Shown here piece after piece: positions 9,495-63,899 of a DNA stretch of 64,000 nucleotides; position 1 is the stretch's first letter, and each line of letters opens with the position of its first letter. The notes beneath the pieces were generated by a model, which saw nothing but the letters and a program-made list of their open reading frames with translations, was not told the DNA's origin and did not search any database. Position numbers and translations under genes: made by a program. The DNA lies in NCBI RefSeq assembly GCF_000612585.1, contig NZ_JFCA01000017.1:1-64000 (forward strand), given 5' to 3'. This DNA is from Pseudomonas sp. CHM02 (GTDB taxonomy: Bacteria > Pseudomonadota > Gammaproteobacteria > Pseudomonadales > Pseudomonadaceae).

Positions 9495-9621
9495 CTGCTC
9501 TCCTCGTCCGTTTTGATCAATCGGGCAGTATCCACATCCCCACACATCAGCGCCATAACCACTTAGCATGACAATTGCATTACACTTTTATGACATTCAT
9601 CCCACTGCGGGGGCACAGACG

Positions 9622-9984
9622 ATGAAAATAAGGGCCACGGTCATTTGCGAACACGAGGGGCATATCCTCTTCGTGCGCAAGGCCAGATCGAAATGGGCAT
9701 TGCCGGGGGGTAAGGTCGAACGCGACGAGCGCCCGGTCGGCGCGGCGGAACGCGAACTGGAAGAAGAAACCGGATTGAACGTGGACGGCTTGCTGTACTT
9801 GCAGGAACTGAAGGCCCGCGACACCGTTCACCACGTGTTCGAAGCGTCAGTCGTCAACATCGCCGATGCAAAACCTTGCAATGAAATCATCGATTGCCAG
9901 TGGCACCCTTATGGCGCCATGGATGAACTGGACACCACCGACGCCACCCGGCACATCGTCAAATCCTTCCTACGTCGCCTGTAG
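9622..9984 (+). CDS. Nudix hydrolase
   Basis: 120 residues from the ATG at 9622 (MKIRATVICEHEGHIL). An upstream in-frame ATG at 9568 would add 18 residues of less conserved sequence. The Nudix box is perfect: GGKVERDERPVGAAERELEE followed by ETGL fits GX5EX7REUXEEXGU, so Mg-dependent pyrophosphohydrolase chemistry is expected. Nucleotide or other diphosphate substrate unknown. It overlaps the 3' end of the convergent gene 9970-10683 by 15 nt. Confidence 0.88.
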   Translation: MKIRATVICEHEGHILFVRKARSKWALPGGKVERDERPVGAAERELEEETGLNVDGLLYLQELKARDTVHHVFEASVVNIADAKPCNEIIDCQWHPYGAMDELDTTDATRHIVKSFLRRL

Positions 9985-10683
9985 CTCAGCGCTCTGCCCG
10001 CTGGCCACCAGGCCTCGCTTCACCAAGCCATTCTCTTTCTGCCGTTCGACAAAGGATCTGACGAACGCGGCAGCGCCTGCATGCGCCACCGGAACCGCCA
10101 TGGCCTGGCGGATGGTCATGAAGTCATCCTGCACCAGGCGCCACTGTTCGCACACCAGGGTTTGCAGAAAGTCGCGCACGCCTGCCGCGGCGTCCAGGCC
10201 TTGCTCGCTGAACCAGTCCACGGCAGCGGCCGAAGTCGGTGCCCGCACCAGTTCGGCATGCTGCAGCGTGCGGCTCAGGTACAGGTCGTACGCCGCGCCC
10301 TGGCCAACGGCGATACGTCGGCCCGGCCCGTCCAGCTGGGCGACGTGGGTGAAGGGTGAAGCCGCTGCCACCAGGTAAGTGCCCTTGATCGCCACGTAAG
10401 GCGCGCTGAAGGCGATTTCCCGTTCACGCACCGGCTCGATCGCCAGAAATGCCACGCGCCATGCATCCTCGGCCAGTGCAGCGAAGACCTTGCCCGCCGC
10501 CTCGAACGTGATCAGTTGCAACTCGACACCCAGCTCTTCGGCCAGCGCCTTGGCGAGCGCCACGGAAACGCCCTGGGGCTTACCGCCCGGGCCGCGTTGC
10601 GCCAATACCGGATTGCCGAAGTTGATGGCGGCGCGCAGCACGCCATCGGGGGCCAGTTGTTGCAGTACCAATGGATCAGTCAT
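9970..10683 (-). CDS. Leaderless solute-binding-fold (SBP_bac_3-like) protein
   Basis: 237 residues resembling a family-3 binding protein: LRAAINFGNPVLAQ, a FLAIEPVREREIAFSAPYVAI segment (the usual ...ER...DFS.PY pattern) and LDGPGRRIAVGQGAAYDLYL. It starts MTDPLVLQQLAPDG with no signal peptide, so it is predicted to be cytoplasmic. Its ATG sits inside the end of the aconitase gene (8-nt overlap), so it is translationally coupled to that enzyme rather than to a permease. It may be an intracellular ligand sensor, or an enzyme that reused the fold, as cyclohexadienyl dehydratase did. No function is established. Confidence 0.75.
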   Translation of the reverse strand: MTDPLVLQQLAPDGVLRAAINFGNPVLAQRGPGGKPQGVSVALAKALAEELGVELQLITFEAAGKVFAALAEDAWRVAFLAIEPVREREIAFSAPYVAIKGTYLVAAASPFTHVAQLDGPGRRIAVGQGAAYDLYLSRTLQHAELVRAPTSAAAVDWFSEQGLDAAAGVRDFLQTLVCEQWRLVQDDFMTIRQAMAVPVAHAGAAAFVRSFVERQKENGLVKRGLVASGQSAELQAT

Positions 10684-44953: not shown

Positions 44954-47738
44954 CAACGGGCAGGTCACGGTGTTTAACGCCGATGGCAGCCAGGAAGTCT
45001 ACGTGCATGACCAGCGGGCGCGGCTGGTGCAGCGGGTGGATCCTGACGGGGCCGAGCACTTCAAGTCCTACGATGACAAAGGCCGGCTGACGGTTGAGCA
45101 GGATCCGCTGGGCGCGATCACGGCCTACCAGTACGACGAAGCCGGGCGTCTGGTGGCGTTGTTTCCGGGGGATGATGAGCCGACGACCTACGAGCATGAC
45201 AATGGATTCGTACGGGTGGTGCGCCGTGGTGAAGCCGTCTGGAAGTATGAGCGCAATGATCAGGGCGATGTCACTCGTAAGACCGATCCTGATGGTCACG
45301 TTACGGACTACAGCTACAACAAATATGGGCAGCTGATTGGGGTTTGGTACCCGGATCACAGCTGTCAGCGGCTGGTATGGAATGAGCGTGGGCAGTTGCT
45401 TGAGGAGCAGTTGCCGAATGGTGAGATCAAGCGTTATCGCTATGACGATCTCGGGCGGCAGATTGCGCGGGAAGATGAGCACGGCGCGCTGACCCAGTAT
45501 CAGTGGGACAGCGTGGGTCGGTTGACTCGCGTTGTGCAGCCAGGCGGCGAGTTCAGGGAATACAGCTACAACCCCTACGGAAAAATCACCGCCGAACGCG
45601 ATGAACTGGGGAACATCACCCGCTACGAATACGCCGACGGCCTGCACCTGATCAGCCGCCGCATCAATGCCGATGGCAGCCAGGTCAACTACCGCTACGA
45701 CAACGCGCGTTTACTGCTGACCGAAATCGAAAACGAAGTTGGCGAAACCTACCGGCTCCAGTACCACAACAACGGCCTGATCCAGCAGGAAACCGGGTTT
45801 GACGGTCAGCGCACCGCTTACGTCTACGACCTCAACGGCAACCTTTCGGAGAAGACCGAACACGGCGATGACGGCAGTCAGTTGGTTACCCGCTACGAGC
45901 GCGATTACGCCGGACGCCTCGTCAGAAAAACCCTGCCCGACGGTGGCAAGGTTGATTACACCTACGACCGCCAAGGCAATCTCTTAGGCGTCGAAGACGG
46001 CCACTGGGCCCTGGCCTACGAATACGACACCCAAAACCGCCTCACCGCCGAACACCAAGGCTGGGGCACCCTGCGTTACGGCTACGACGCCTGCGGCCAT
46101 CTTCAAAACCTACGCCTGCCGGACAACAACCGCCTCACCTTCAATCACGACAAAGGCGGTCACCTCGCCACCGTCGAACTGAACGGCGCAGTACTCACCT
46201 CACACCTCTTCACCGCCGGCCGCGAACAGCAACGCCAACAAGGCCAACTGCTCAGCACTTACCAACACGACCACCAAGGACGCCTGTTCAACCAGAGCAT
46301 CAACGACGCCGAAGGCCCGCTATACCGCCGCCACTACGACTACGACCCATCCGGCAACCTCACCCGCCTGCTCGACACCCGCAAAGGCGAACACCGCTAC
46401 CACTACGCCCCCCTAAGCCGCCTCACCCGCGCCGACCACACCCAAGGCGAGCAAGAACGCTTCGGCCACGACCCCGCCGGCAACCTGCTCATGCAAGACC
46501 GCCCCGACATCGTCGCCGGCAACCGCCTGATGATCCAGGGCGATCACCACTACGACTACGACGCCTACGGCAACCTGATCCGCGAACGCCGCGGCAAAGG
46601 CCATCAACTCGTCACCGAATACCGCTACGACTGCCAGCATCGCCTGATTGGTATTAAAAAACCCAACGGCCAGACCACCAGCTACCGCTACGACCCGTTT
46701 GGGCGGCGTATCAGCAAAACCGTCGATGGCATAACCACCGAGTTCTTCTGGCAAGGCGACACACTCATCGCCGAACACCACGAGAACCGCCACCGCAGCT
46801 ACCTCTATGAACCCGACAGCTTCCGTCCACTTGCCTTACTGGACGGTTTCGGTCCAAAGGAAACCAAGCCCTACCACTACCAACTCGACCACCTGGGCAC
46901 GCCGCAGGAACTCACCGCTCTGGATGGCGAAATCGTCTGGTCCGCGCATTACCGCGCCTACGGCGAAATCAGCCGCCTCGACATCGGAAAAGTCGACAAT
47001 CCGCTGCGCTTCCAGGGTCAGTATTTCGATCAGGAAAGCGGGCTACATTACAACCGCCATCGCTACTACAATCCGGATATTGGTCGCTACCTGACGCCGG
47101 ATCCGGTGAAGCTGGCGGGTGGGATCAATGCGTACCAGTACGTGCCTAATCCTACGGGATGGGTTGATCCGTTAGGGTTAAGCTCATGTCCTGGCGGAGA
47201 TGGTTGCAAGCCAAGCGCTACTGCTAAAAACTCTGCGCCAAGTGTTAATGATGGAGAGCCAGCTTTACCACAACTGACGCGTGCTGAGCGTCAGGCAAGA
47301 ATTGATGAGCTGGCTGAGTCAAACATTCATCGCCGATTATCGGAACTCGAGATATCAATTCCAGGAGCACACTTCTTGGAAAAACATGGAGCTCAAACCT
47401 CATTGGAGTCCCAACTTGAACGGGTGACAACAGCTAGAAATCCAACTACCGGAAGAATCGAGACCTTTGACAGAGGAAGAAGAGCAGGTACACCAAGACC
47501 ACCCAGTGCTGCCACGCACTTTCTTAGTCACAGAGATCAATTCAATGCAATTGAGCGAGCCATTCTGATATTCAAACTTAATGGCCGAGCACAAACCCCA
47601 AGACCAATGAACATGGGTAAAGTTATCGGGGATGGTTATAAGAGAGACGGACTAGAATATGGAAAACAAACTAAAGCAGTTGTGCATTTGGATAGAGACG
47701 GAAAACCAATCACAGCCTATACGGAGTTCGACAGATGA
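44928..47738 (+). CDS. Rhs core and C-terminal toxin domain (frameshifted gene, second part)
   Basis: Continues the Rhs gene in the next frame; homology begins about 44907, first ATG at 44928 with no ribosome site. Dozens of YD repeats build the Rhs cage. The hyperconserved end FQGQYFDQESGLHYNRHRYY, GRYLTPDPVKLAGGINAYQYV and NPTGWVDPLGL marks the autocleavage site at about 47180. The last 183 residues are the variable toxin: AT-richer, with GAHFLEKHGAQTSLESQLERV, ATHFLSHRDQFNAIERAI and a terminal VHLDRDGKPITAYTEFD. The HxxxKHG and SHRDQ patterns recall nuclease toxins of the RNase A-like/BECR type, but that family call is tentative. Stop overlaps the next gene by 4 nt. Confidence 0.85.
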   Translation: MDTRYAWDDNGQVTVFNADGSQEVYVHDQRARLVQRVDPDGAEHFKSYDDKGRLTVEQDPLGAITAYQYDEAGRLVALFPGDDEPTTYEHDNGFVRVVRRGEAVWKYERNDQGDVTRKTDPDGHVTDYSYNKYGQLIGVWYPDHSCQRLVWNERGQLLEEQLPNGEIKRYRYDDLGRQIAREDEHGALTQYQWDSVGRLTRVVQPGGEFREYSYNPYGKITAERDELGNITRYEYADGLHLISRRINADGSQVNYRYDNARLLLTEIENEVGETYRLQYHNNGLIQQETGFDGQRTAYVYDLNGNLSEKTEHGDDGSQLVTRYERDYAGRLVRKTLPDGGKVDYTYDRQGNLLGVEDGHWALAYEYDTQNRLTAEHQGWGTLRYGYDACGHLQNLRLPDNNRLTFNHDKGGHLATVELNGAVLTSHLFTAGREQQRQQGQLLSTYQHDHQGRLFNQSINDAEGPLYRRHYDYDPSGNLTRLLDTRKGEHRYHYAPLSRLTRADHTQGEQERFGHDPAGNLLMQDRPDIVAGNRLMIQGDHHYDYDAYGNLIRERRGKGHQLVTEYRYDCQHRLIGIKKPNGQTTSYRYDPFGRRISKTVDGITTEFFWQGDTLIAEHHENRHRSYLYEPDSFRPLALLDGFGPKETKPYHYQLDHLGTPQELTALDGEIVWSAHYRAYGEISRLDIGKVDNPLRFQGQYFDQESGLHYNRHRYYNPDIGRYLTPDPVKLAGGINAYQYVPNPTGWVDPLGLSSCPGGDGCKPSATAKNSAPSVNDGEPALPQLTRAERQARIDELAESNIHRRLSELEISIPGAHFLEKHGAQTSLESQLERVTTARNPTTGRIETFDRGRRAGTPRPPSAATHFLSHRDQFNAIERAILIFKLNGRAQTPRPMNMGKVIGDGYKRDGLEYGKQTKAVVHLDRDGKPITAYTEFDR

Positions 47739-48109
47739 AAAAGAAACCAGACATCGCTATATTGCAAGGCTTTTTATTCACATACAGCATAGAGAACACC
47801 ATTGATTTAGAAAGAGAAGAAATCATAGTTTCAAAAAACGTAAACAACAACGCTGAACTCTCAGAGCTTTTCGATATTCTAACCAAGCCCGAATTCCTCT
47901 CATACAGAGAGGATGAGCAAATATGGTTCATAGAAACCATCGAGCATTACCTATCAAAAGGGGATGATTTCGAATCTGTCTTTTATCTATTTGACACACA
48001 CTTCGAAAACGACATAACTGACAAAAGAGCGTTCATGGCAATACTGCTTGAACGTCTCAAGAGTTACCACAACGAGGCCGACACACACAAATCAAAAGCT
48101 ATTAAATAA
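47735..48109 (+). CDS. Putative immunity protein for the Rhs toxin
   Basis: 124 residues, acidic and AT-rich, with no signal peptide or membrane segment. Start overlaps the Rhs stop by 4 nt (ATGA), the standard toxin-immunity arrangement. Predicted mostly helical (ELSELFDILTKPEF, EQIWFIETIEHYLS, FMAILLERLKSYHN). I recognise no named immunity family. The assignment rests on position, size, charge and composition. Confidence 0.75.
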   Translation: MKKKPDIAILQGFLFTYSIENTIDLEREEIIVSKNVNNNAELSELFDILTKPEFLSYREDEQIWFIETIEHYLSKGDDFESVFYLFDTHFENDITDKRAFMAILLERLKSYHNEADTHKSKAIK

Positions 48110-49608: not shown

Positions 49609-50667
49609 CTAGACCGATCGCAACCAACTCCCCTGTACGGAACTGACGCGGTTTCGCCCGCTGCTCTTGGCCTCGTACAACGCCTGGTCAGCGTCATTCA
49701 GCCAACTGGTGGAATCGGCGTGGGTCGGCTGATACGGCGCCAGGCCGATGCTCAGGCTGACGCGCAGGGTCGGGTCCTGGGCGTAGGCCAGGGCGTTGAA
49801 GCGGTCGCGCAACGCGTCCATCACTTCGGTGGCACGGCTGAGGTCCATGTCCGGCAGGATCACGCAGAACTCGTCGCCACCGTAACGCCCGGCCAGGTCG
49901 GTGGCGCGCAGGTTCTGGCGCAGTACCTTGCTGAGTTGGCGCAGGACGATATCGCCGGTGACATGGCCGTAGGTGTCGTTGATAACCTTGAAGTGATCGA
50001 TATCGATCAACGCGATGGCAGCGCCTGCCGAACCGCGGCGGCAGCGTTGGAATTCGATCTCCAGATGATCTTTCCAGGCGCCGTGGTTGAGCAGGCCGGA
50101 CAAACTGTCCGTGCGGCTCAGGGCCAAGAGCTCGCGCTTGTGTCGCGCCAGGGTCACCGCCTGGCGGTAGCAGATCCAGCCCAGGGCCAGCGGATACAGC
50201 ATCAGGATCGGCAGGCAGGCGTAGAGCTGCGCCTGGGTGGTCACGGCGATGAAGGCCGGGGCAAACATCAACAATGCCGTGCCGATCCCCAGCGCCTGCG
50301 CCATCCATCCCGCCAGCATGAAACGGGGGCCGCCAATGGCCACGTTGTTCATGGTCATCATCGACAAGGTGGTCACACTGGGCAGTGGATTGAAGTGCAT
50401 GGCGCCGACCCAGAACCCACCGCAAAACGAGTCGAACAGCAAGTTGCGGCGTTCGCTTCGCAGTGCGTTGGCGGTGCGCAACGTCAGTTGAAACGCCAGG
50501 TGCGGCCAGACAAATGCGTTGATCAACATCCAGGCCCACACCCACCCGGCGGGATCCAGGGGATACATCCCGAACACCACGCAGACGAATCCGAGCGTCA
50601 GGCCGAGCATGCGGGACTTGTACAGCCGTGAAGCGAGCGGAAGTCCGTGTCCTTCTGCAGCTGACAT
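49609..50667 (-). CDS. MASE2-GGDEF diguanylate cyclase (AdrA-like)
   Basis: 352 residues. The N-terminal 170 residues hold about six membrane segments in MASE2 style (LTLGFVCVVFGMYPLDPAGWVWAWMLINAF, RNLLFDSFCGGFWVGAMHFNPLPS). The C-terminal GGDEF domain has an intact active site YGGDEFCVIL and a product-inhibition RxxD (RATD) five residues before it. DSLSGLLNHGAW is the usual domain start. Makes cyclic di-GMP from GTP. E. coli AdrA/DgcC with this layout controls cellulose production; exopolysaccharide genes lie 8 kb away. Confidence 0.93.
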   Translation of the reverse strand: MSAAEGHGLPLASRLYKSRMLGLTLGFVCVVFGMYPLDPAGWVWAWMLINAFVWPHLAFQLTLRTANALRSERRNLLFDSFCGGFWVGAMHFNPLPSVTTLSMMTMNNVAIGGPRFMLAGWMAQALGIGTALLMFAPAFIAVTTQAQLYACLPILMLYPLALGWICYRQAVTLARHKRELLALSRTDSLSGLLNHGAWKDHLEIEFQRCRRGSAGAAIALIDIDHFKVINDTYGHVTGDIVLRQLSKVLRQNLRATDLAGRYGGDEFCVILPDMDLSRATEVMDALRDRFNALAYAQDPTLRVSLSIGLAPYQPTHADSTSWLNDADQALYEAKSSGRNRVSSVQGSWLRSV

Positions 50668-54152: not shown

Positions 54153-54230
54153 TGCAATACAAAGGGCACAAGGCAAGGCTGCCGCCACTGGCTAGACTGC
54201 GCCCCAATGAGAATTTACGAGGAAGGCAGC

Positions 54231-54971
54231 ATGGATCATGTCGATCACATCCTGATCGTCGATGACGACCGGGAGATCCGCGAATTGGTGGGCAACTACC
54301 TGAAGAAAAACGGTATGCGCACCACTGTGGTTGCCGACGGTCGCCAGATGCGCAGCTTCCTCGACACCACGCCGGTGGACCTGATTGTGCTGGATATCAT
54401 GATGCCCGGCGACGACGGCTTGCAGCTGTGCCGCGAACTTCGAGTAGGCAAGCACAAGGCCACGCCGGTGCTGATGCTCACGGCGCGCAATGATGAAACC
54501 GACCGCATCATCGGCCTGGAAATGGGCGCCGACGATTACCTGGTCAAACCTTTCGCCGCCCGTGAACTGCTGGCACGTATCAACGCCGTGTTACGCCGCA
54601 CGCGGATGCTGCCGCCGAACCTGGTGGTCAGCGAGACCGGACGCCTGATCCGCTTCGGCCGCTGGCGCCTGGATACCACCGCCCGCCACCTGCTCGACGA
54701 AGACGGCACCCTGGTGGCCCTGAGCGGCGCCGAATACCGCCTGCTGCGAGTGTTCCTCGACCACCCCCAACGCGTGCTCAACCGCGACCAGTTGCTGAAC
54801 CTGACCCAAGGCCGCGACGCGGATCTGTTCGACCGCTCCATCGACCTGCTGGTGAGCCGCCTGCGCCAACGCCTGCTGGATGACGCCCGTGAACCGGCCT
54901 ACATCAAGACCGTACGCAGTGAGGGCTACGTGTTCTCCCTGCCGGTGGAAATCCTCGGGGCCGATCAATGA
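54231..54971 (+). CDS. OmpR family response regulator
   Basis: 246 residues from the ATG at 54231, after GAGGAAGG; upstream in-frame starts are not protein-like. Receiver domain: acidic pocket VDDDREI, phospho-acceptor Asp55 (IVLDIMMPGDDG), Thr in LMLTARNDE and Lys in LVKPF. C-terminal winged helix runs from about residue 145 (RFGRWRLDTTARHLLDEDG to RSEGYVFSLPVE). Overlaps its kinase gene by 4 nt. Signal unknown. Confidence 0.95.
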   Translation: MDHVDHILIVDDDREIRELVGNYLKKNGMRTTVVADGRQMRSFLDTTPVDLIVLDIMMPGDDGLQLCRELRVGKHKATPVLMLTARNDETDRIIGLEMGADDYLVKPFAARELLARINAVLRRTRMLPPNLVVSETGRLIRFGRWRLDTTARHLLDEDGTLVALSGAEYRLLRVFLDHPQRVLNRDQLLNLTQGRDADLFDRSIDLLVSRLRQRLLDDAREPAYIKTVRSEGYVFSLPVEILGADQ

Positions 54972-56272
54972 AGCTACGATTTGGCTGGCCACGCACCCTG
55001 GCGTCGCAGCTGTCGCTGATCTTCCTGATCAGCCTGGTGTGCGCCCATGGCTTGTCCTTCAGCGCGCAGTTCTACGAGCGCTATATCAGTGCGCGCACCG
55101 CCATGCTGGGCAACCTGGAAAACGATGTGTCCACCTCGATCGCCATTCTCGACCGTTTGCCCGCCACCGAGCGCGCCAGTTGGCTGCCGCGTCTCGACCG
55201 GCAGAATTACCGCTACCTGCTCGATGCCGGCGAAACCGGCGCGCCGATGAGCAGCGACGATGCCCCCATGGCCGCCACCTCGATCGCGGACGCACTGGGC
55301 GAACACTACGCGCTGACCTTTCGTGACATCCCCGGCATGCAGAAACACTTCCAGGCGCACCTGACCCTGGCCGATGGCAGCCCGATCACCATTGATGTAC
55401 GCCCCGCCGCCCTGCCCGTCGCCTATTGGCTGCCAGTGGTGCTGGTACTGCAACTGGCGCTGCTGCTCGGCTGCACCGGGTTCGCCGTGCGCCTGGCCAT
55501 CCGCCCGCTGACTCGCCTGGCTCGCGCTGTAGAGACCCTCGACCCGAATGCCCACCCCACGCCGCTGGACGAAAAGGGCCCGACCGAAGTCGCGCATGCC
55601 GCCGCCGCGTTCAATGAAATGCAAAAACGCATCGCCGAATACCTCAAGGAACGCATGCAGATCCTCGCGGCGATTTCCCATGACCTGCAAACCCCGATTA
55701 CCCGCATGAAGCTGCGTGCCGAATTCATGGAAGACTCCGCCGACCGCGACAAACTCTGGAACGACCTCGGCGAAATGGAGCACCTGGTGCGCGAAGGCGT
55801 GGCCTATGCGCGTAGCGTTCATGGCGCTACCGAAGCCAGCCACCGGATCAACCTCGACGCTTTCCTCGACAGCCTGGTGTTCGACTATCAGGACATGCAC
55901 AAACAGGTCAGCCTCAGTGGCAAAAGCGCGGTGGTGCTCGACACCCGCCCTCATGCCCTGCGCCGGGTGCTGGTGAACCTGGTGGACAACGCACTGAAGT
56001 TCGCAGGCAGTGCCGAGCTGGAAGTGGGCTCGACGGCGAACGGAGAATTGTCGATCAAGGTACTGGACCGTGGGCCCGGGATCGCCGAGGACGAACTGGT
56101 GCAGGTGATGCAACCGTTTTACCGCGTGGAGAGCTCACGCAATCGCGGCACCGGTGGCACCGGGCTGGGGTTGGCGATTGCGCAGCAACTGGCGGTGGCG
56201 ATAGGCGGCTCGTTGACCTTGAGCAATCGAGCGGAAGGTGGCTTGTGTGCCGAGATTCGCCTCGTGCTTTAA
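54968..56272 (+). CDS. Sensor histidine kinase
   Basis: 434 residues. Two membrane segments (SLIFLISLVCAHGLSFSA and YWLPVVLVLQLALLLGCTGFAV) frame a periplasmic sensor of about 120 residues with no recognised fold. HAMP follows (IRPLTRLARAVETL). Phospho-acceptor His238 in ISHDLQTPITRMK; N box NLVDNALKFAG, G boxes DRGPGIAED and GGTGLGLAIAQQL. Cognate to the preceding OmpR-type regulator. EnvZ-like overall layout. Confidence 0.94.
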   Translation: MKLRFGWPRTLASQLSLIFLISLVCAHGLSFSAQFYERYISARTAMLGNLENDVSTSIAILDRLPATERASWLPRLDRQNYRYLLDAGETGAPMSSDDAPMAATSIADALGEHYALTFRDIPGMQKHFQAHLTLADGSPITIDVRPAALPVAYWLPVVLVLQLALLLGCTGFAVRLAIRPLTRLARAVETLDPNAHPTPLDEKGPTEVAHAAAAFNEMQKRIAEYLKERMQILAAISHDLQTPITRMKLRAEFMEDSADRDKLWNDLGEMEHLVREGVAYARSVHGATEASHRINLDAFLDSLVFDYQDMHKQVSLSGKSAVVLDTRPHALRRVLVNLVDNALKFAGSAELEVGSTANGELSIKVLDRGPGIAEDELVQVMQPFYRVESSRNRGTGGTGLGLAIAQQLAVAIGGSLTLSNRAEGGLCAEIRLVL

Positions 56273-56458
56273 TTTGAAGCCGGGTTAACGGCTGCACTGC
56301 AGCCTCCCGTCTAACTGATAATATCTAACCGCCTGCTGCCGCTAACCCATTGACGTAAGATATTTATCGCACACTAAAAAACTGCACTAGCATATGTGCA
56401 ACATCGTACAAACTTCTCCATATCCCCCTCTCTGCCGCGCTCCGCTACCCCGAAACAA

Positions 56459-56482
56459 GTGGCAAATGTTAAAATTTGTCAC
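56459..56482. promoter_or_regulatory. AT-rich inverted repeat before the winged-helix regulator
   Basis: GTGGCAAAT and ATTTGTCAC (8 of 9 matching) surround six bases, about 86 bp before the ATG at 56568, in a 295-bp AT-rich gap after the kinase gene. Candidate operator. Nothing else stands out in the gap. Confidence 0.5.
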
Positions 56483-56567
56483 GTTTTGGCGGAATCAATT
56501 CGATTAGTATCTAAACGCTAGCCGCGATTGATCTGACGGCCTTGCATGCCGGAAAAGGGAGTAGGTG

Positions 56568-57296
56568 ATGCATTTTTCCAATGTCCTCGCTATTGCACGG
56601 ACTCAGTCTAAATCGGAGGATTTCAGAGAGCTTATAGTTCGCACTGTAGCGGATGATTTAAAAGTCGATACACGTTACTACGAGCAACTAATTGACACCC
56701 AGGAAAGTCACGGAAATTACCGCGCGATCATCATAGAAATCGATACGCCCTCGGCCAGCAATCTAACGCTGGACATAATAAGAAAAACCCGAGACAAAAA
56801 CCCAGGCTGCACCATATTTGTCGTTGTCACCTTTGCCTCTACCCTGAGCAAAACAAAATACTACCTGGCGGGTGCGGATTACTGCATCAAGGTGGTAGAG
56901 ACCTCCCCCGAAAAAAAGTTGAGTCTGTTTGACGCTTTTCTCCGCGAGGGCGCTCGACTGAATCGTTGTGGCCTGGTACTCGATCAGGACCGCATGTGCA
57001 TTTACGGTGATGGCAAAAAGCTAGAAATCTCCTTCGTCGAGATGAAAGTATTGGAAGCGCTTATCCAGCGTCGACTGCTCAGTCATAATGAAATCGCAGC
57101 TGTCATGGGGCTGAATACCAAGTACTACGACTCCAGAGCACTGGAAAAGTCTATTAGCCGCCTGCGCAGCAAAATCAAGGCACACTACGGTGAAAATATC
57201 ATTCAGAATATTCGAGGCTATGGCTACAAGCTAAGCCTGGGCCTTATTTGCGCCAGCCATTTTCAATCCGCCAAGGAGAGGTCGAATCGTGAATAG
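56568..57296 (+). CDS. Atypical OmpR/PhoB-type winged-helix regulator
   Basis: 242 residues from the ATG at 56568 (a GTG one codon before is also open). The C-terminal 95 residues are a PhoB-type winged helix (KLEISFVEMKVLEALIQRRLLSHNEIAAVMG to ISRLRSKIKAHYGENIIQNIRGYGYKL). The N-terminal 120 residues keep a receiver-like alpha/beta pattern (FSNVLAIARTQS, YRAIIIEIDTPSASN, CTIFVVVTFAST), but the acidic pocket is not evident, so phosphorylation is unlikely. AT-richer than neighbours. The stop overlaps the next gene by 8 nt. Confidence 0.82.
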   Translation: MHFSNVLAIARTQSKSEDFRELIVRTVADDLKVDTRYYEQLIDTQESHGNYRAIIIEIDTPSASNLTLDIIRKTRDKNPGCTIFVVVTFASTLSKTKYYLAGADYCIKVVETSPEKKLSLFDAFLREGARLNRCGLVLDQDRMCIYGDGKKLEISFVEMKVLEALIQRRLLSHNEIAAVMGLNTKYYDSRALEKSISRLRSKIKAHYGENIIQNIRGYGYKLSLGLICASHFQSAKERSNRE

Positions 57297-57984
57297 CGAC
57301 AAAATATGCCGTGACCAACTGATGGACTTCAATCTTGCCAGGCAAGCCATCGTTGATCGCAGTCATGCACTGTGGGGCAGCGAAATAAGCATCGTGTGCC
57401 CGCACAATCATGCACGGTCTGAAAGTGCCTACAACGAGGCCTTGCAACGTATAAGCGCACGGCATAAAGCGTCCAATCCAGCGTTGAGTCATAAGTTTCT
57501 ATGCATCGACCAAGCGGCCTTGATGAATGAAGATCTGCACAACAAGATTATTCAGACTGCCCGCGCTCTGGAAAAGCACAAACAACCGTTGACCCTCAGT
57601 ATCAATAACCCGTTGGACGCACTTCCCGGCCCGGTTGAACGCAGGGCAATGGTCTACCAGTTATATAAGTTGAAAGACCAATGCGGCCTATCGCTGGCTT
57701 ACAATAATTACAGGCTTGATACAAAACAGACCGACCTGCTGATTGACCTCGAGCTCTACGACTATATAAAAATGCCTTTTCCGGACTCCGCCCTTCGGCT
57801 GAGTCTGAATACCCGCTCCGATCTGTTCGACCGTCTCTACGACCGCATGCTAGAGCTGATCAGCGCGACGCGGGTGTGCTTCATTGCCGACACTGTCGAG
57901 TTCGCCGACAGTGCACTATTGGCTAAAAACCTGCCGTTCGAATACTTTCAGGGCGGTTATTACTCGCCTGCTGATTACCTATAA
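57289..57984 (+). CDS. Degenerate EAL-domain protein
   Basis: 231 residues. The outline of an EAL phosphodiesterase domain is visible: FNLARQAIVDRSHALWGSEI corresponds to the usual F..RQPI.D....GYEL start, CGLSLAYNNYRLDT to the ..LALDDFG segment, and CFIADTVEFADSALLAKNLPF with FQGGYYSPADYL to the AEGVE.....GC...QGYY.S.P end. The DDFG aspartates and the AEGVE glutamate are not kept (YNNY; ADTVE), so cyclic di-GMP hydrolysis is unlikely. A ligand-binding or protein-interaction role as in YdiV or CsrD relatives is inferred. Coupled by 8-nt overlap to the preceding regulator. Confidence 0.7.
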   Translation: MNSDKICRDQLMDFNLARQAIVDRSHALWGSEISIVCPHNHARSESAYNEALQRISARHKASNPALSHKFLCIDQAALMNEDLHNKIIQTARALEKHKQPLTLSINNPLDALPGPVERRAMVYQLYKLKDQCGLSLAYNNYRLDTKQTDLLIDLELYDYIKMPFPDSALRLSLNTRSDLFDRLYDRMLELISATRVCFIADTVEFADSALLAKNLPFEYFQGGYYSPADYL

Positions 57985-58015
57985 CACCTGTACCTTCCTA
58001 CTCTCGGTGGACACT

Positions 58016-58675
58016 ATGAGCTCCCTCAAGAAATACGCCTTCACGCCCACACTTCCCGCTATTGCATTGCAGGATTTTTCGCCCAATGCAGAGTTATTTC
58101 ATTACGATGTAAACGCACCAACCATGACAGAAACAGGCGATAAAAAACGCGAATTCAATTCGCGCCAAGCCAGGCACAGCGATCACCCGCGACTGAATAC
58201 TTATGTCATTACTCATACCATCAACTTACCCTCTTACCCTTTTAACGCTGTGCGACAAGAATCCAGGACGCCAATGCCAAAGGATCATGACAGCGCGCCG
58301 AATAACCATGTTCATCCTCCGGAAATAAACGCCGACCGAAGTCAACTTTACCCACAGGATTTCTGGCTGCTGACCCAGCATGACCGAATCCTGGCGAAGG
58401 GTGGCCTGCGTATTTCATTGACCGCCATTGAATCCGCACTGATAAAAAAGATGCTGCACCATGAAGAACGCGTGGTCAGTAAAGAGGAGTTGATCCGTAA
58501 TATCGGGCGCGAACCCGAGTTATATCGCGGCCTGGAAATGTGCCTGAGCCGCCTGCAGGAAAAGTTCAAGCGGGCCAACGACGGGGAACGTCTGTTTCGT
58601 GCGGTAAGGAATCGGGGTTATTGCCTCACGCAGAAAATCAAGAAGCCACTCGAGCTGACTCAATCGCGCCGTTAA
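58016..58675 (+). CDS. Second winged-helix regulator of the trio
   Basis: 219 residues from the ATG at 58016, 31 nt past the EAL-like gene; the longer open frame overlaps that gene. The C-terminal 100 residues are a PhoB-type winged helix (LRISLTAIESALIKKMLHHEERVVSKEELIRNIG to FRAVRNRGYCLTQK). The N-terminal 120 residues are polar, probably disordered, and match no receiver. Not a paralogue by close identity to the regulator at 56568, but the same DNA-binding family. Presumably acts on the exopolysaccharide genes that follow. Confidence 0.78.
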   Translation: MSSLKKYAFTPTLPAIALQDFSPNAELFHYDVNAPTMTETGDKKREFNSRQARHSDHPRLNTYVITHTINLPSYPFNAVRQESRTPMPKDHDSAPNNHVHPPEINADRSQLYPQDFWLLTQHDRILAKGGLRISLTAIESALIKKMLHHEERVVSKEELIRNIGREPELYRGLEMCLSRLQEKFKRANDGERLFRAVRNRGYCLTQKIKKPLELTQSRR

Positions 58676-58886
58676 CATAAAAAACACCACATAATTTACC
58701 ATTCACCCTGCCTACTGACACACTCTTATACCTGCCTTTTTTTAACGCCCTCTTCTAATAATAGTACGCCGACCTTGTTATAAGTCGTCAGCCAATGCCC
58801 CCTGCCGTTCATTACTATCCGTGGGTACGCGACTGCGCGTGCCTGTCGTTTTTGTGCGGTATTGCGCCGCGTGTTTAAACCCAGCC

Positions 58887-58900
58887 ACCACGTGCGTGGT
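58887..58900. promoter_or_regulatory. Short palindrome before the phosphoglycosyltransferase gene
   Basis: ACCACG-TG-CGTGGT is a perfect 6-bp inverted repeat ending 19 bp before the ATG at 58920, just ahead of the ribosome site GGGAGC. It could be an operator or a small leader hairpin. The rest of the 244-bp gap shows no firm signal. Confidence 0.4.
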
Positions 58901-58919
58901 TACCACCGGGAGCAGAACT

Positions 58920-60311
58920 ATGCTGAATAATACTAGAATGCATCGCAACCTGACCCCCAAGGGTTTGACGTTCTGGGGCCAGTGGACGCTTGCATCGGGT
59001 TTGGTTGTAACATTATTGTTTATGTTGGTCTTTTTGAAGACCGGCCAACTTGAGTACAACTATCGAATCCTAGCAGCCTTTACCATACTGGCCTCGCTAC
59101 CGGCTTATAGCCTGTGCGATGTTTACAGCAAGAAAGATGACTATGGCGTAGGACTCGGGCGATTGTTCATGGGCTGGCTACTTACCGTGGGCATATTGTT
59201 TGCAGTGGGTGTCGCCTGCAATGCCAGTTCATTGTTTCCCTTGGAAATCTTACTGTTATGGGCCGCGGTCAGTTACCCACTGTTGGCACTGTGTTATATC
59301 CCTTTGCACAGCCTGTCCCGGTATTACCATCGACAACTTCATCAACGGCACAAGTCATTGATTGTGGGCACCGGCAAACTCGCCGTCGACCTGGCCAAAA
59401 CCCTCTCCCGCCAGAAGCGTTCACCCTTGGTCGGGCTGGTTGGCAGCTACGCCGATGCTGTCCACGATGCGCAACCGCAGATACTCGGTGAGTTGCCACA
59501 GTTGCCGCAATTGATCCGCCAGCATGGCATTCGCCGGCTCTACATCACCCACTCACTGCAGGACGCCACCCACATCGAGGCGTTGTACCTCAACCTGCTG
59601 GAGATCAGCGTGGATGTGATCTGGGTACCCGACCTCAACAACATGCTGCTGCTCAATCATTGCGTGGCCGAAGTGGATGGGCTGCCGGCGATTTTCCTCA
59701 ATGAAAGCCCACTCACCAGTCGCCCCACCGCCGCCTTGAGCAAGTCATTGCTGGACAAGAGCCTGGCCTTGCTGGCCATCATCGCTCTGAGCCCGTTGTT
59801 GTTGCTGTTCGCCTTGCTCATCAAGCTCACCTCACCCGGCCCGGTGATTTTCAAGCAGGACCGGCATGGCTGGAATGGCCAGGTGATCAAGGTGTGGAAA
59901 TTCCGCTCGATGCGTGTGCATGACGACCACGAGGTACGCCAGGCCAGCCGTAACGATTCGCGCATCACCCCCGTGGGCCGGTTTATCCGCCGTACCTCCA
60001 TCGATGAGTTGCCGCAGCTGTTCAACGTGCTGCAGGGCGATATGGCACTGGTCGGCCCCCGCCCCCATGCGATTGCGCACAACGACTACTACTCAGGGAA
60101 GATTCACGCCTACATGGCGCGCCATCGCATCAAGCCGGGTATCACCGGCCTGGCGCAAGTCAGTGGCTGCAGGGGCGAGACCGAGACCCTGGAGAAGATG
60201 CAGAAACGCGTGGATATCGACCTGCGTTACATCAACACCTGGTCGCTGTGGCTGGATATCAAGATCCTGATCAAGACACCGTTTACGCTGCTCTCGAAGG
60301 ACATTTACTGA
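58920..60311 (+). CDS. Undecaprenyl-phosphate phosphoglycosyltransferase (WcaJ-like)
   Basis: 463 residues from the ATG at 58920. Four or five N-terminal membrane segments, a central CoA-binding-like domain (KSLIVGTGKLAVDLAKTL) and a further membrane helix (LALLAIIALSPLLLLFALLIKL) lead to the catalytic bacterial sugar transferase domain: KVWKFRSMRV, SIDELPQLFNVLQGDMALVGPRPH with the DE pair, and PGITGLAQVSG. It transfers hexose-1-phosphate to undecaprenyl phosphate, the first step of exopolysaccharide assembly. No other glycosyltransferases follow on this strand. Confidence 0.92.
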   Translation: MLNNTRMHRNLTPKGLTFWGQWTLASGLVVTLLFMLVFLKTGQLEYNYRILAAFTILASLPAYSLCDVYSKKDDYGVGLGRLFMGWLLTVGILFAVGVACNASSLFPLEILLLWAAVSYPLLALCYIPLHSLSRYYHRQLHQRHKSLIVGTGKLAVDLAKTLSRQKRSPLVGLVGSYADAVHDAQPQILGELPQLPQLIRQHGIRRLYITHSLQDATHIEALYLNLLEISVDVIWVPDLNNMLLLNHCVAEVDGLPAIFLNESPLTSRPTAALSKSLLDKSLALLAIIALSPLLLLFALLIKLTSPGPVIFKQDRHGWNGQVIKVWKFRSMRVHDDHEVRQASRNDSRITPVGRFIRRTSIDELPQLFNVLQGDMALVGPRPHAIAHNDYYSGKIHAYMARHRIKPGITGLAQVSGCRGETETLEKMQKRVDIDLRYINTWSLWLDIKILIKTPFTLLSKDIY

Positions 60312-60324
60312 CCCTCTGGAAACG

Positions 60325-60410
60325 CGTTCGCTCGCGAAGAACGTTAACGATGACGCGGGTTGCCTGGATGCCCCTTCGTCCTCAGTTCTTCGCGAGCGGG
60401 CCACCCCTAC
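60325..60410. repeat. REP doublet (inverted pair) with GTTAACGATGACGC tail
   Basis: CGTTCGCTCGCGAAGAACGTTAAC and inverted GTTCTTCGCGAGCGGGCC separate the convergent transferase and yjbH genes and just touch the yjbH stop. Confidence 0.72.
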
Positions 60411-62482
60411 TCGGTGATCTTGTCGATATTCTTGTAGAACAGCTCACTGTCGCGCCCATCCGTCATCGAATGCAGTGAATAAGCACGGTTCAAGCGTGCC
60501 CCGCCGTCGCGGGTCAAAGGTGCCCACACCAGATTGGCGCGGCGCATGGTCGACAGGCTCATCAGCTCATCGAAGGGAATGGACAGGTAGAGCCCCTTGT
60601 CGAAACTGCCTTCACCAAACTCCTCCTTGGAGACGTTGGTACGCGTAACCCATGCCCCGATACGCACGCCGTTGTTGAATTCCCGCGACAGGTCCAGCGT
60701 CGCGCCCCAGTCCCTGGCCAGGTAGCGGCCGACACTCAAGGCGCCCTGCAGGTTGAACGGCAGATCGGTATAGCCGGTGATATGCCCGGTCACGGTACGG
60801 TAATCACGCAGGCTGAAATCCTGCTCGAAACCGCGTTGGCGCACGTAGTTGAGATCCGCACCCACCGCCCACCCCTTGCCCATTGGCCGGTACAGCACTT
60901 CACTGCCGACACCGGCATACATCGATTCCAGCAAACCGCCATAGACCATGCCGTACAGGTCCTGGTCCAGGCGCTGAGCATGGTTGAGCTGGAAGGTCGG
61001 CAGGGTCACATCGGCGCTGGTCATGTATTGGCGCAGGTCGGTGCGTACCCGCGGCAAGCCGCTGGGCGCGTCGTAGGTGAAACCGTCGTAATTGTTCAAC
61101 AGGTTGACGCTCAGCAAGCCACTCCACCAGGTGTTGCGGGTGAAGCGGTATTCAGCGTCGAGGTCGGCGGATATCTGGTAGAGCAAGCCATCCGGCCCAC
61201 CGACGTTCTGCTTGTAGCCAAGGCCTGCGCCATAGCTGAAGGCTTTGGGAGGCTGGGTGTAGAGCACTGTCTGTGTGCGCTCGCTGGCGCGATTGACCTC
61301 GACTTGGCGGTGCAGGGTCTGCAGGTCCTGGCGGTTGTTGACCACCTCGCGAAAGGTCGCTCGGGGCACGCTGGTTTCCTCGATCGGCATGGCATAGCGC
61401 TCGCTGACCAGGGTGAACCAGTCGATCTGGTCATTCACGCTGTTATCCAGGATGCGACTCGCGCGCCCCACGGCCTTGGCGCTGTAGAAATAGCGCTGCT
61501 GTTCGCCATACACCAACAGCTCCGGCCCTCGCTGGGTAATGCGTTGCACGTTGTAGCCCGCATTGTCATGCAGACGCTGGGACACGGCGGCCCAGTCCAC
61601 TTGGTCCATCGACGTAGCGGGCGCCTGCGACGGCAGCTTGGGCGCCGGCGGATCGTAGGTTTTCGCAGGCGCCTTGCGGCTGACGAAGTTGGTGTGCAGG
61701 GTGATGCCGAACATCGCGGTGTTGCCACGCTCCCAGGCAGCACTCACGTCGATGGAGTCGGCGACCTTGTAGACCAAGCCGAGGTTGACCGGCGAATCCT
61801 GACGAAAACTGTTGTCCCGTGGCTCGTTCTTGTAGTCGTTGCCCTCCACTTCGAGCTTGAGGCTCAGCGGCGCCCAGGGTGTCTGGTAGGCAACACCGCC
61901 AAACAGCGCGGGCCGCCCGCGAAAGTAGCCGTTGGAGAAACTGCCGGAGCCTTCGGCGGTGGGCCGTTCATTGAAGCGGTCATCCAGCGCGCCGATCGGG
62001 TTGCCGAAATCGCCGCGACTGCCCAGGTAACCCCAGGCAATGCCGGCACTGAAATCCAGATCACCGTAACGTTTGCTGGCCACCAGGTACTCGCTGGAAA
62101 ACAGCCCGGTGCCACCCAGGTCCATGAGCCCCAGTGCCACTTCCGGTAGCCAGTGGCTCTCCTGATAAAGGCGCACTTTGGCATCGACGGCCTTGTCCTT
62201 GTAACTCTGGCCGCCGCTGAACGACTCGGGCCCATAGGGGCGGTTGGTGATCGCGGTGTAGCGGAAGGTGCCTTCCAGCCAGTCCAGCGGCTGCGCCGAG
62301 AAACTGTAGCGGCTGTACGGTTCGGTACGGTTGGCGTTCACGCTGAGTTCGCCGGCGGGCGCCATGCGGGCGGTGGGGGTTTGCAGCAAACCCACGCCGC
62401 CGAAATCGCTTTGGGTGTAACGGGGATCGCCGTGCACGACGCCACAAGGCACCAGCAGCACGGCTGCAATACATAATTTCAA
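60407..62482 (-). CDS. yjbH: YjbH/GfcD family outer-membrane protein
   Basis: 691 residues. Signal peptide MKLCIAAVLLVPCGVVHG. Mature DPRYTQSDFGGVGLLQTPTARMAPAGELSVNAN is the YjbH-domain start. Two beta-barrel-like halves are joined by a central alpha/beta linker (SMDQVDWAAVSQRLHDNAGYNVQRI). In E. coli yjbEFGH and gfcABCDE this protein is required for export or anchoring of extracellular polysaccharide. Last gene of the minus-strand yjb operon; overlaps yjbG by 4 nt. Confidence 0.9.
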   Translation of the reverse strand: MKLCIAAVLLVPCGVVHGDPRYTQSDFGGVGLLQTPTARMAPAGELSVNANRTEPYSRYSFSAQPLDWLEGTFRYTAITNRPYGPESFSGGQSYKDKAVDAKVRLYQESHWLPEVALGLMDLGGTGLFSSEYLVASKRYGDLDFSAGIAWGYLGSRGDFGNPIGALDDRFNERPTAEGSGSFSNGYFRGRPALFGGVAYQTPWAPLSLKLEVEGNDYKNEPRDNSFRQDSPVNLGLVYKVADSIDVSAAWERGNTAMFGITLHTNFVSRKAPAKTYDPPAPKLPSQAPATSMDQVDWAAVSQRLHDNAGYNVQRITQRGPELLVYGEQQRYFYSAKAVGRASRILDNSVNDQIDWFTLVSERYAMPIEETSVPRATFREVVNNRQDLQTLHRQVEVNRASERTQTVLYTQPPKAFSYGAGLGYKQNVGGPDGLLYQISADLDAEYRFTRNTWWSGLLSVNLLNNYDGFTYDAPSGLPRVRTDLRQYMTSADVTLPTFQLNHAQRLDQDLYGMVYGGLLESMYAGVGSEVLYRPMGKGWAVGADLNYVRQRGFEQDFSLRDYRTVTGHITGYTDLPFNLQGALSVGRYLARDWGATLDLSREFNNGVRIGAWVTRTNVSKEEFGEGSFDKGLYLSIPFDELMSLSTMRRANLVWAPLTRDGGARLNRAYSLHSMTDGRDSELFYKNIDKITE

Positions 62483-63249
62483 GGCGTGACCTCGGCCAGG
62501 GGTTGGGTGGCGAGAAACTCGGCCAATTGCTGATTCAGTTCAGGCGTGGGTGGGTCCAGATCGTCGCTACGGATCGGCACCAGCAGCGTGCTGCCGGGCG
62601 CCGGCGGCAGGCCGTCTTCGCGATTCCATGGGGCAATGCCCAGGCGCGTGACGCGGCCGTCGGGCTGGATCAGCCACAGGTAATCGGTGTCCGACTCGGT
62701 CAATGAGGGGCAGGCGCGGAGGTAGTCGCGGGCCAGTTGCAGCGACTTGAACGCCAAGGTGCAGGCAGTGGGGACAGCGCCCAGCACGCGGACACTGTCG
62801 GGTCGCGGTGGGTAAACCAGGCGATCGCCATCGCTGACCGGCAGATTGGCCGCAAAGCCGACCTCCACTGCCACCGGGTCGAGCATGGCCACCTGGCGGC
62901 CGGTAATCGGTAATGACAACACCTGTTGGTAGAGTCGCGCCGCAACATCAGCGCGGTTCTCACGCCCGGCCGCCAAAGCCGCCTGGCGCAGGGTGTTCAG
63001 GTCAAACAGCACGCCGGCCTTGAGCCGCGCCTGGCGTTCGAGCAGCGGCTGGTGCAGCCAGGCCGCCCCCAGCCAATAGCCTTGGGCATCCGGTTGAGCC
63101 GCCGTGATCACGTCCAGCAAGCGCGCGTCCGGTTGTACTTGGATCGCTCCCGGATTGCGCACCTGGCCACTGACCGTGATGGTCGCGGCCAGGCACACAG
63201 GGGCACAGCTGCATAACAGGAGCAACGCCCCGAGTCGTCGAACAGTCAT
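62479..63249 (-). CDS. yjbG: YjbG/GfcC family periplasmic capsule-biosynthesis protein
   Basis: 256 residues. Signal peptide MTVRRLGALLLLCSCAPVCLA. Starts ATITVSGQVRNPGAIQVQPDARLLDVI, a SLBB-like beta-grasp unit. Then a helical insert (LLERQARLKAGVLFDLNTLRQAAL) and a second beta-grasp region (NLPVSDGDRLVYPPRPDSVRVLGAV) follow, the GfcC layout. Soluble periplasmic partner of the YjbH-type protein. Overlaps both neighbours by 4 nt. Confidence 0.9.
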   Translation of the reverse strand: MTVRRLGALLLLCSCAPVCLAATITVSGQVRNPGAIQVQPDARLLDVITAAQPDAQGYWLGAAWLHQPLLERQARLKAGVLFDLNTLRQAALAAGRENRADVAARLYQQVLSLPITGRQVAMLDPVAVEVGFAANLPVSDGDRLVYPPRPDSVRVLGAVPTACTLAFKSLQLARDYLRACPSLTESDTDYLWLIQPDGRVTRLGIAPWNREDGLPPAPGSTLLVPIRSDDLDPPTPELNQQLAEFLATQPLAEVTP

Positions 63250-63899
63250 CGGGCGTCCTTGCGGGTCGGTTGCAGCTGGGTGATGGTCAGGCTCAGGTTG
63301 GGCGTGAGGTGCTGTTCGCTCTGCACGATAAAACCGTCGTCGGGGTCGACCCAGTAACGGTTGCGTGCATGAAAGCCGGCGACCTCTATGTCTTCGTCCA
63401 CGCGCAGCAAGGCGTAGGGCTTATCGAGGATCTCGACGGTTTCGATACCCTTGCGAGTCATGCGGCTGGTGACCGTGAGGCCCACGCGATAACCACCCAC
63501 CAGGTCGATCTGCCGTGTACTGCGGTAACCGTCCGGCACACGGTGCAACCCCTGCTGGAAGGGTGATTGGCCCTGCCAGCGCGTACCATCCAGGTCGGTG
63601 CCGAGGCCCACCGTGCGCACCACCAGGCCATCGCGCACCAGCAGCACCTGCTTGCCGGACGCAACCCAGAATTGCAGGTCGCCGCGCTGGCGAATCAGCG
63701 CCATTACCCCTTCGCTGGACACCGTGGTGACCTTGACCTGAGGAAATGGCACGGCATCCACCTGAGCCTGGGTCAGCACCAGCGGCGAAGGCCCGGCCAC
63801 GGCGGCCTTGAAGGTGTCCACGGAAGCCGTCATCAGCGGGTTGCAGCCACACAACAGCCACGCCAACCCCGTGTAAGTCGCGAATTTCAGACTGTTCAC
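63246..63899 (-). CDS. yjbF: YjbF/GfcB family lipoprotein
   Basis: 217 residues from a GTG at 63899, preceded by AAGGTGG. Lipoprotein signal MNSLKFATYTGLAWLLCGC with lipobox LCGC and lipidated Cys19. The body (VSSEGVMALIRQRGDLQFWVASGKQVLLVRDGLVVRTVGLG, RSTRQIDLVGGYRVG) is the beta-rich GfcB fold. Second gene of the yjbEFGH-like operon. Confidence 0.88.
   Translation of the reverse strand: MNSLKFATYTGLAWLLCGCNPLMTASVDTFKAAVAGPSPLVLTQAQVDAVPFPQVKVTTVSSEGVMALIRQRGDLQFWVASGKQVLLVRDGLVVRTVGLGTDLDGTRWQGQSPFQQGLHRVPDGYRSTRQIDLVGGYRVGLTVTSRMTRKGIETVEILDKPYALLRVDEDIEVAGFHARNRYWVDPDDGFIVQSEQHLTPNLSLTITQLQPTRKDAR

Follow-up and report, generated by a model that had tools for sequence, protein, structure and literature searches.

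Two winged-helix proteins and a degenerate EAL protein encoded ahead of a Pseudomonas capsule locus are predicted to form a self-activating switch

We analysed a stretch of 64,000 nucleotides (nt) from Pseudomonas sp. CHM02 (contig NZ_JFCA01000017.1, positions 1 to 64,000, forward strand; hereafter the window), in which three consecutive open reading frames (ORFs), ORF1 to ORF3, head a colanic-acid-like capsule locus running from wcaJ to wzb. We consider it probable, at about 0.73, that this trio constitutes a dedicated self-activating capsule switch, in which the winged-helix proteins ORF1 and ORF3 would act on a shared operator and the degenerate EAL protein ORF2 would be accessory. The module itself is real, conserved and very probably functional, and its reading frames are not the product of chance because they are conserved in many species. 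The features on which the argument depends are as follows.

56568-57296, + strand: ORF1, 242 residues, pseudo-receiver followed by an OmpR/PhoB winged helix (Pfam Trans_reg_C; receiver fold)
57289-57984, + strand: ORF2, 231 residues, stand-alone degenerate EAL protein (EAL fold by model and structure search and by profile-profile comparison)
58016-58675, + strand: ORF3, 219 residues, winged helix with an eroded N-terminal receiver (Trans_reg_C)
58920-60311, + strand: wcaJ, undecaprenyl-phosphate glucose phosphotransferase (TIGR03023, 436.9 bits; cut-off 410.75)
56467-56481, + strand: candidate operator TGTTAAAATTTGTCA upstream of ORF1 ([T/C]GTTA-N6-GTC pattern)
56505-56510, + strand: -10-like TAGTAT, putative element of the ORF1 promoter, 24 nt after the GTC of the operator
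58776-58790, + strand: candidate operator TGTTATAAGTCGTCA upstream of wcaJ ([T/C]GTTA-N6-GTC pattern)
58813-58818, + strand: -10-like TACTAT, putative element of the wcaJ promoter, 23 nt after the GTC of the operator

The three genes lie on the plus strand. ORF1 and ORF2 overlap by 8 nt and ORF2 is separated from ORF3 by 31 nt; ORF2 starts with GTG, ORF3 with ATG at 58016, and the start codon of wcaJ was placed by eye. A preliminary description of this DNA had read the region as three small genes, the first two overlapping by 8 nt, encoding two PhoB-type DNA-binding proteins that lack working receivers and an EAL fold deprived of its DDFG aspartates, next to surface-polysaccharide genes. The present analysis bears out this reading, with the state of the ORF3 receiver judged by sequence only.

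ORF1 and ORF3 carry winged helices without working receivers

Both proteins match Trans_reg_C above its Pfam cut-off of 26.2 (37.2 bits for ORF1 and 37.9 for ORF3), and neither window protein gives a Pfam match to Response_reg. The N-terminal half of ORF1 is modelled as a receiver (best structural match Z 14.4, rmsd 2.6, 120 residues aligned; the model has an overall pLDDT of 78). Position 57, which aligns with the phospho-acceptor of a neighbouring response regulator, is occupied by E57 in the window and varies over 21 ORF1 rows (E in 12, I in 5, D in 3 and V in 1). The acidic pair of a receiver has no counterpart at positions 7–11, where none of the 21 rows holds an acidic residue, and T88 and K108 are kept in 18 of them; the roles of these positions are those that we assume for receivers. 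ORF1 is therefore best described by its model as a protein predicted to have kept the receiver fold and lost the phosphorylation chemistry. In ORF3 the receiver domain appears eroded, and this erosion would have taken place along the present lineage, since the ORF3 counterpart in locus L041 still matches Response_reg above cut-off (35.6 bits; cut-off 30.2).

The two winged helices have in common an LE...SRL..K recognition segment, and the DNA-binding halves are nearly invariant between clades. In one locus (L038, genome G005, 10499-12609) an ISL3-type transposase gene separates the receiver part of ORF1 from its winged helix; the capsule genes remain adjacent. ORF1 may also be broken in two others (L032 in G179 and L135 in G549), where it matches in two pieces that are in different frames or carry a stop.

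ORF2 is a stand-alone EAL protein with an incomplete active site

The Pfam EAL profile (PF00563) scores 19.8 bits on ORF2 (E 5.5e-4) and misses its gathering cut-off of 31.3. The AlphaFold2 model, calculated from a 46-row alignment, is a confident EAL barrel (pLDDT 83, pTM 0.81). Foldseek returned 98 matches to this model at E <= 0.001, and the 50 matches listed were all EAL proteins or EAL-containing modules. In the structure search the best match was YahA (Z 19.5, rmsd 3.2, 212 residues aligned), again with 50 of the 50 listed matches being EAL; the ligand-binding EAL proteins FimX and LapD were among the listed structural matches. Profile-profile comparison with EAL domains of the same genome gave a probability of 98.0 (E 3e-13, 215 columns), the comparison profile comprising 19 of 21 such domains after exclusion of two (L144 and L147) that were too short or contained stops. 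The EAL fold of ORF2 is settled by the structure model.

Active-site residues were mapped onto ORF2 by alignment and by eye, with the roles usual in the family (metal-binding E, N, E, D, D; catalytic K, E, Q). Four pocket residues are kept across the 46 rows: E32 in 44 (the other two being gaps), K161 in 44, E204 in 44 and Q221 in all 46. At the changed positions of the window protein, the metal-binding Asn is C72, the Glu of EITE corresponds to the S104/N106 region, the aspartate pair is N139 N140 and the Glu of AEG is D201, while the EAL motif is followed by neither R nor W. Over the family, position 72 is mostly C or R, position 104 mostly S or A, and position 201 is D in 44/46 rows; position 139 is D in 25/46 and N in 18/46, and position 140 is G in 19, N in 18 and D in 7. 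The full set of metal-binding and catalytic residues of an active phosphodiesterase is not present in ORF2, for which catalysis is predicted to be lost and the pocket partly kept.

A relative of ORF2 with 30% identity, in which DNY replaces DDF, was found in locus L046 (genome G138, 9589-12981). It precedes a gene for a small protein with weak likeness to a molybdopterin oxidoreductase domain and one for a GGDEF-EAL protein; neither trio nor capsule genes were seen in the 20 kb fetched. ORF2 possibly originated from this type of family.

The trio is conserved in front of wcaJ

Within the genus, 97 of 398 genomes contain an ORF1 match (E <= 1e-25), and ORF2 has matches in 24 of 199 sampled genomes (E <= 0.001). 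Across the order, the ORF2 profile matched 2 of 194 genomes at E <= 1e-8, both of the same genus and one being the source genome itself. The preliminary description had set EAL-fold similarity in the structure prediction of ORF2 and conserved linkage of the three genes as tests beforehand, and its reading withstood both; in one scan, ORF1, ORF2, ORF3 and wcaJ followed one another in this order on one strand in 54/54 Pseudomonas loci. The only locus outside Pseudomonas in that scan, from Vibrio (L103), is a weak match (24%, E 1e-4) and lies closer to an ordinary EAL profile than the other rows.

In a first set of 23 loci, the ordered series ORF1, ORF3 and wcaJ was present in 22, of which 20 had ORF2 as well; within this set, L047 retains only a remnant of ORF2 and L048 a strongly diverged form. 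The exception is L046, where the ORF2 relative stands alone. Twenty further ORF1 loci, all picked from less similar ORF1 matches (33-48% identity), kept ORF1 and ORF3 without exception, with wcaJ in place in 18.

Two neighbouring candidates were considered as additional parts of the module. The two-component pair upstream (54192-56272) was rejected, since matches above 60% identity were limited to L049 for its response regulator and to L049, L109 and L112 for its kinase. The diguanylate cyclase at 49609-50667, which the preliminary description had pointed out as lying only 6 kb away, has a close match only in L049, L062 and L067 and shows no sign of being a conserved partner. For both candidates, many fetched loci have flanks too short to reveal them.

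The GC content of the three ORFs is 0.476-0.507 vs 0.618 for the window, and they form the lowest 2.1-kb stretch of the 64 kb. The AT-richness pointed out earlier is thus real, but the accompanying suggestion of acquisition is not needed in its recent form, given the presence of ORF1 in 97 of the 398 genus genomes. MvaT prefers AT-rich DNA, and we infer that silencing by this protein would fit such a block equally well.

ORF1 and wcaJ are preceded by the same operator-like element

Motifs were counted in 330-nt upstream stretches of distinct sequences. The pattern [T/C]GTTA-N6-GTC occurs on the forward strand in 88/88 ORF1 and 82/84 wcaJ sequences (83/84 for wcaJ on either strand), compared with means of 2.40 and 1.35 in 20 mononucleotide shuffles scored on either strand (largest values 7 and 4). 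Its TGTTA form is present in 87/88 and 63/84 sequences, respectively, against means of 0.65 and 0.90 in 20 dinucleotide shuffles (largest values 2 and 3). A TAnnnT -10-like element follows the site after 23-24 nt in 83/88 ORF1 and 82/84 wcaJ promoters. Before ORF1 the site lies ~100-120 nt from the gene, and its flanks and six middle letters vary between clades. Ahead of both genes, TGTYA-like repeats at a 10-bp step end where the -35 element would begin. From this arrangement we infer that the element is an operator and that ORF1 and ORF3 are the proteins that bind it.

Across the whole genome (6.66 Mb, 132 contigs), the strict form TGTTANAANNNGTCR is found three times, always in the capsule locus (56467, 58776 and 70791). 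Among 19 genomes with ORF1, 46 of 75 strict matches are situated within 40 kb of ORF1, and all 19 genomes carry such a match at a distance of 3 kb or less. A 90-kb stretch was scanned with a matrix built from ORF1 promoters only; after its own site and overlaps the matrix ranked 65509 (before wza), 79768 (before wzb), 70788 (before gmd), the unrelated 929 and 58773 (before wcaJ). The gmd-side site recurs ~14 kb from ORF1 in G017, G175, G409, G511 and G555. On the source contig (G000:C17), further operator-like sites were noted at 65509, 70788, 79768 and 79739, before wza, gmd and wzb.

Upstream of ORF3, matches were found in 14/34 sequences, all on the minus strand and 13 at one place near the end of ORF2. 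These are probably the same kind of ORF2-end site as is seen in G409 (2848431) and G511 (4220652), where an extra strict match sits on the opposite strand, ~1.4 kb from the ORF1 start and at the end of ORF2.

Capsule genetics in strain SBW25

The account of Pseudomonas fluorescens SBW25 given here draws on two papers (PMC4357382, PMC6519391). Its colanic-acid-like locus, wcaJ-wzb, corresponds to pflu3658-3678, with pflu3655-3657 directly upstream of wcaJ and 14 transposon insertions in pflu3654-3657 (PMC4357382). Mutants with insertions in these genes make less capsule or none (PMC4357382, PMC6519391), and non-polar insertions in pflu3656 and pflu3657 lower capsulation (PMC6519391). The promoter upstream of pflu3655 is on in capsulated cells (PMC4357382, PMC6519391), and no transcript changes more than that of pflu3655, which is raised 572-fold in capsulated cells when one line is compared with its ancestor (PMC6519391). 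The same paper proposes positive feedback, controlled by RsmA/E and ribosomes, and reports that mvaT deletion raises capsulation and that three switch-causing rpoD changes all fall in the -35-reading helix-turn-helix of sigma-70 (PMC6519391).

The preliminary description knew of no comparable module in print. That view has to be revised, since by position the trio corresponds to pflu3655-3657, which are known capsule activators (PMC4357382, PMC6519391). The 2015 SBW25 paper states that most of the regulator region has no significant database matches, and its authors regard the regulators as lacking homology to the Rcs phosphorelay (PMC4357382). The words 'EAL' and 'winged' are absent from the texts of PMC4357382 and PMC6519391, and no operator is named for these regulators in the accessible parts of either. 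If the positional match holds, the genetics of the trio are already known in SBW25; its folds and operator are only tentatively regarded as undescribed, no account of them having been found in the papers searched.

Proposed mechanism and alternative explanations

We propose that ORF1 and ORF3, no longer run by phosphorylation, would bind tandem TGTYA half-sites within [T/C]GTTA-N6-GTC. The bound sites would lie directly against the -35 region in two promoters, that of the trio itself and that of wcaJ, where ORF1 and ORF3 would recruit sigma-70 polymerase as class II activators; further sites may be used before wza, gmd and wzb. One element in both promoters would couple autoactivation to capsule activation and so close a positive feedback loop, the output of which would be set by the amount of ORF1-ORF3 protein (in the SBW25 proposal, by RsmA/E against ribosomes). 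With the phosphorylation chemistry predicted to be lost, activity should therefore follow protein amount, as a bistable translationally controlled loop requires. ORF2, a dead EAL protein, would contact ORF1 or ORF3 and thereby increase what the loop yields; the remainder of its pocket may hold a ligand. The pflu3656 phenotype and the gene order suggest such a positive helper, and this is the weakest step of the proposal.

A more tentative version of the mechanism casts the trio as a non-enteric analogue of RcsAB, in which an ORF1-ORF3 heterodimer would occupy an asymmetric box (TGTTA then NGTC) that replaces the -35 element, and the dead EAL protein would set the gain. The orientation of the box before ORF1 is always the same. 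If this version is true, the SBW25 rpoD mutations may act directly at both promoters by way of a contact between sigma-70 and the activator, beside or instead of the ribosome route.

Several points count against a self-activating switch of this kind. The trio is equated with SBW25 pflu3655-3657 by position and gene count only. The TGTTA-N6-GTC motif was first noticed by eye, in alignments of 32 ORF1 and 26 wcaJ upstream sequences, and the 88 ORF1 and 84 wcaJ sequences in which it was counted are related to each other, so that the counts are not independent. Its absence upstream of ORF2 (0/72), YjbF (0/47) and YjbH (0/53) is a weak control, as these stretches are largely coding DNA. The strict form is not rare genome-wide: its reversed control also has 3 matches in the source genome, and the 75 strict matches in the 19 genomes with ORF1 compare with 77 for the reversed control, so that position, not rarity, sets the strict pattern apart. 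Five control genomes without ORF1 have 0, 0, 0, 0 and 1 strict matches; YjbH had no match in these five, which probably lack the whole capsule locus and therefore cannot separate ORF1/ORF3 from another regulator that could own the operator. The fold of the leader RNA is nothing special (z 1.29). Finally, only 3 of the 20 further loci have an intact ORF2; in the other 17 it is either reduced to a C-terminal remnant (6 loci) or undetected (11 loci), and it is therefore not essential everywhere.

The leader offers little guidance on translational control. Rfam gave no match in 56200-59000, and 6/32 leaders (L028, L033, L053, L062, L067 and L125) lack the GGA that otherwise stands immediately ahead of the ribosome site; RsmA/E binding is therefore compatible with the sequence and not supported by it.

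The history of ORF2 was traced on a WcaJ tree of 83 rows, rooted by midpoint only. The state 'ORF2 intact', a class that includes L048 with its apparently frame-shifted C-terminus, needs two changes on this tree. ORF2 is absent in one five-row clade and decayed in an eleven-row clade with support 92 (7 remnants and 4 absences). ORF1, ORF3 and the operator are the core of the module, and ORF2 is accessory.

A different role for ORF2 would be that of a receptor for cyclic di-GMP (c-di-GMP), which it would bind without cleaving in order to signal to ORF1/ORF3 and place the capsule under c-di-GMP control. FimX and LapD act as such receptors in other pathways, and both are among the structural matches of ORF2. 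The pocket residues E32, K161, E204 and Q221 are kept, as is the first DDFG aspartate in 25 of the 46 rows, although not in the window. Against this, the window protein has lost the metal-holding Asn and Glu and both DDFG aspartates, and has neither R nor W after its EAL motif; no conserved GGDEF neighbour was seen, many fetched flanks being short; and ORF2 has been lost in lineages that keep ORF1, ORF3 and the operator. We regard the receptor role as doubtful. The c-di-GMP control raised in the preliminary description may still apply, with four pocket residues kept but most metal ligands gone in the window protein.

It is unlikely that the operator belongs to another regulator and that ORF1-3 act elsewhere, for example downstream of that regulator. 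Such an arrangement would agree with a motif known from sequence comparison and with control genomes that seem to lack the capsule locus together with ORF1. It does not readily explain why the motif stands at a near-fixed distance before the regulators' own gene in 88/88 sequences, has the form of OmpR-like tandem half-sites and clusters at the capsule locus.

ORF2 could also be imagined as a brake, a YdiV-like anti-activator that keeps its winged-helix partner off DNA. YdiV contacts FlhD. Like ORF2, it is a stand-alone degenerate EAL protein of similar size, and decay of ORF2 in one clade would be tolerable if ORF2 were a brake. In E. coli, YdiV acts on the DNA-binding ability of Fur, according to PMC7515728. 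We nevertheless find this role improbable, because a non-polar insertion in pflu3656, which matches ORF2 by position, lowers capsulation, the opposite of what loss of a brake would give (PMC6519391). A decaying two-component system of no present role, conserved by hitch-hiking with the capsule locus, is disfavoured as very improbable: it would suit the eroded receivers, the ORF1 split by a transposase gene in L038 and the ORF2 remnants in 6/20 loci, but the DNA-binding halves are nearly invariant across clades, the operator is kept and the SBW25 mutants have a phenotype (PMC4357382, PMC6519391).

The SBW25 switch is a well-studied case of evolved bistability, and a self-activating trio with assigned folds, unlikely phosphorylation and a named DNA element would make that switch directly testable. 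The trio also adds a case of a dead EAL protein tied to transcription factors by gene order, for which the natural losses of ORF2 are ready-made controls. The operator is the part most worth testing.

The adjoining capsule locus and other neighbours

The remaining capsule genes in the window are the following.

60407-62482, - strand: YjbH (PF06082, 810 bits)
62479-63249, - strand: GfcC-like protein (PF06251/PF20616)
63246-63899, - strand: YjbF/GfcB lipoprotein (PF11102)

The locus extends past the window to wzc and wzb (locus L106). This part, on the minus strand, encodes Wza, ManC, Gmm, WcaI, Fcl, Gmd, a family-2 glycosyltransferase and a nitroreductase-like protein, as well as WcaF, a pyruvyl transferase, Wzy, a MatE/Wzx-like protein (below cut-off), Wzc and a Wzb-kind phosphatase. 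Its gene content is similar to that of wcaJ-wzb in SBW25 (PMC4357382). The Pap polysaccharide of strain F113 was considered and set aside, as the accessible part of its description places it at a different locus with a galactose-type transferase; 'YjbH' is absent from that text.

The kin of the window among named records are Pseudomonas that belong, broadly taken, to the fluorescens group. Elsewhere in the window, RHS-repeat proteins (42893-47738) are followed by a 124-residue protein without a Pfam match (47735-48109), possibly a toxin-immunity arrangement.

Relation to known systems

Among enteric systems, YdiV of E. coli and Salmonella resembles ORF2 in being a stand-alone EAL fold that has lost catalysis and presumably acts by protein contact. 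ORF2, unlike YdiV, is encoded between two winged-helix genes, and the SBW25 genetics suggest a positive, not negative, role. BluF-BluR offers a further likeness, a dead EAL protein paired with a transcription factor. This pair differs in the MerR-like character of BluR and the BLUF sensor on BluF, neither of which is found in the trio.

RcsA-RcsB of enterics resembles the trio in having two DNA-binding proteins, one without a working receiver, that act at an asymmetric box to switch on a polymer of the colanic-acid type. The Rcs proteins are of the NarL/LuxR type. ORF1 and ORF3 have their winged helix in common with the OmpR/PhoB regulators, from which they differ in that the phosphorylation chemistry appears lost in ORF1 and the receiver eroded in ORF3. 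OmpR-family proteins bind tandem half-sites near the -35 element and often stand in for a poor one. The closest parallel in gene arrangement is that of SBW25, where pflu3655-3657, like the trio, are three genes directly upstream of wcaJ in a colanic-acid-like wcaJ...wzb locus.

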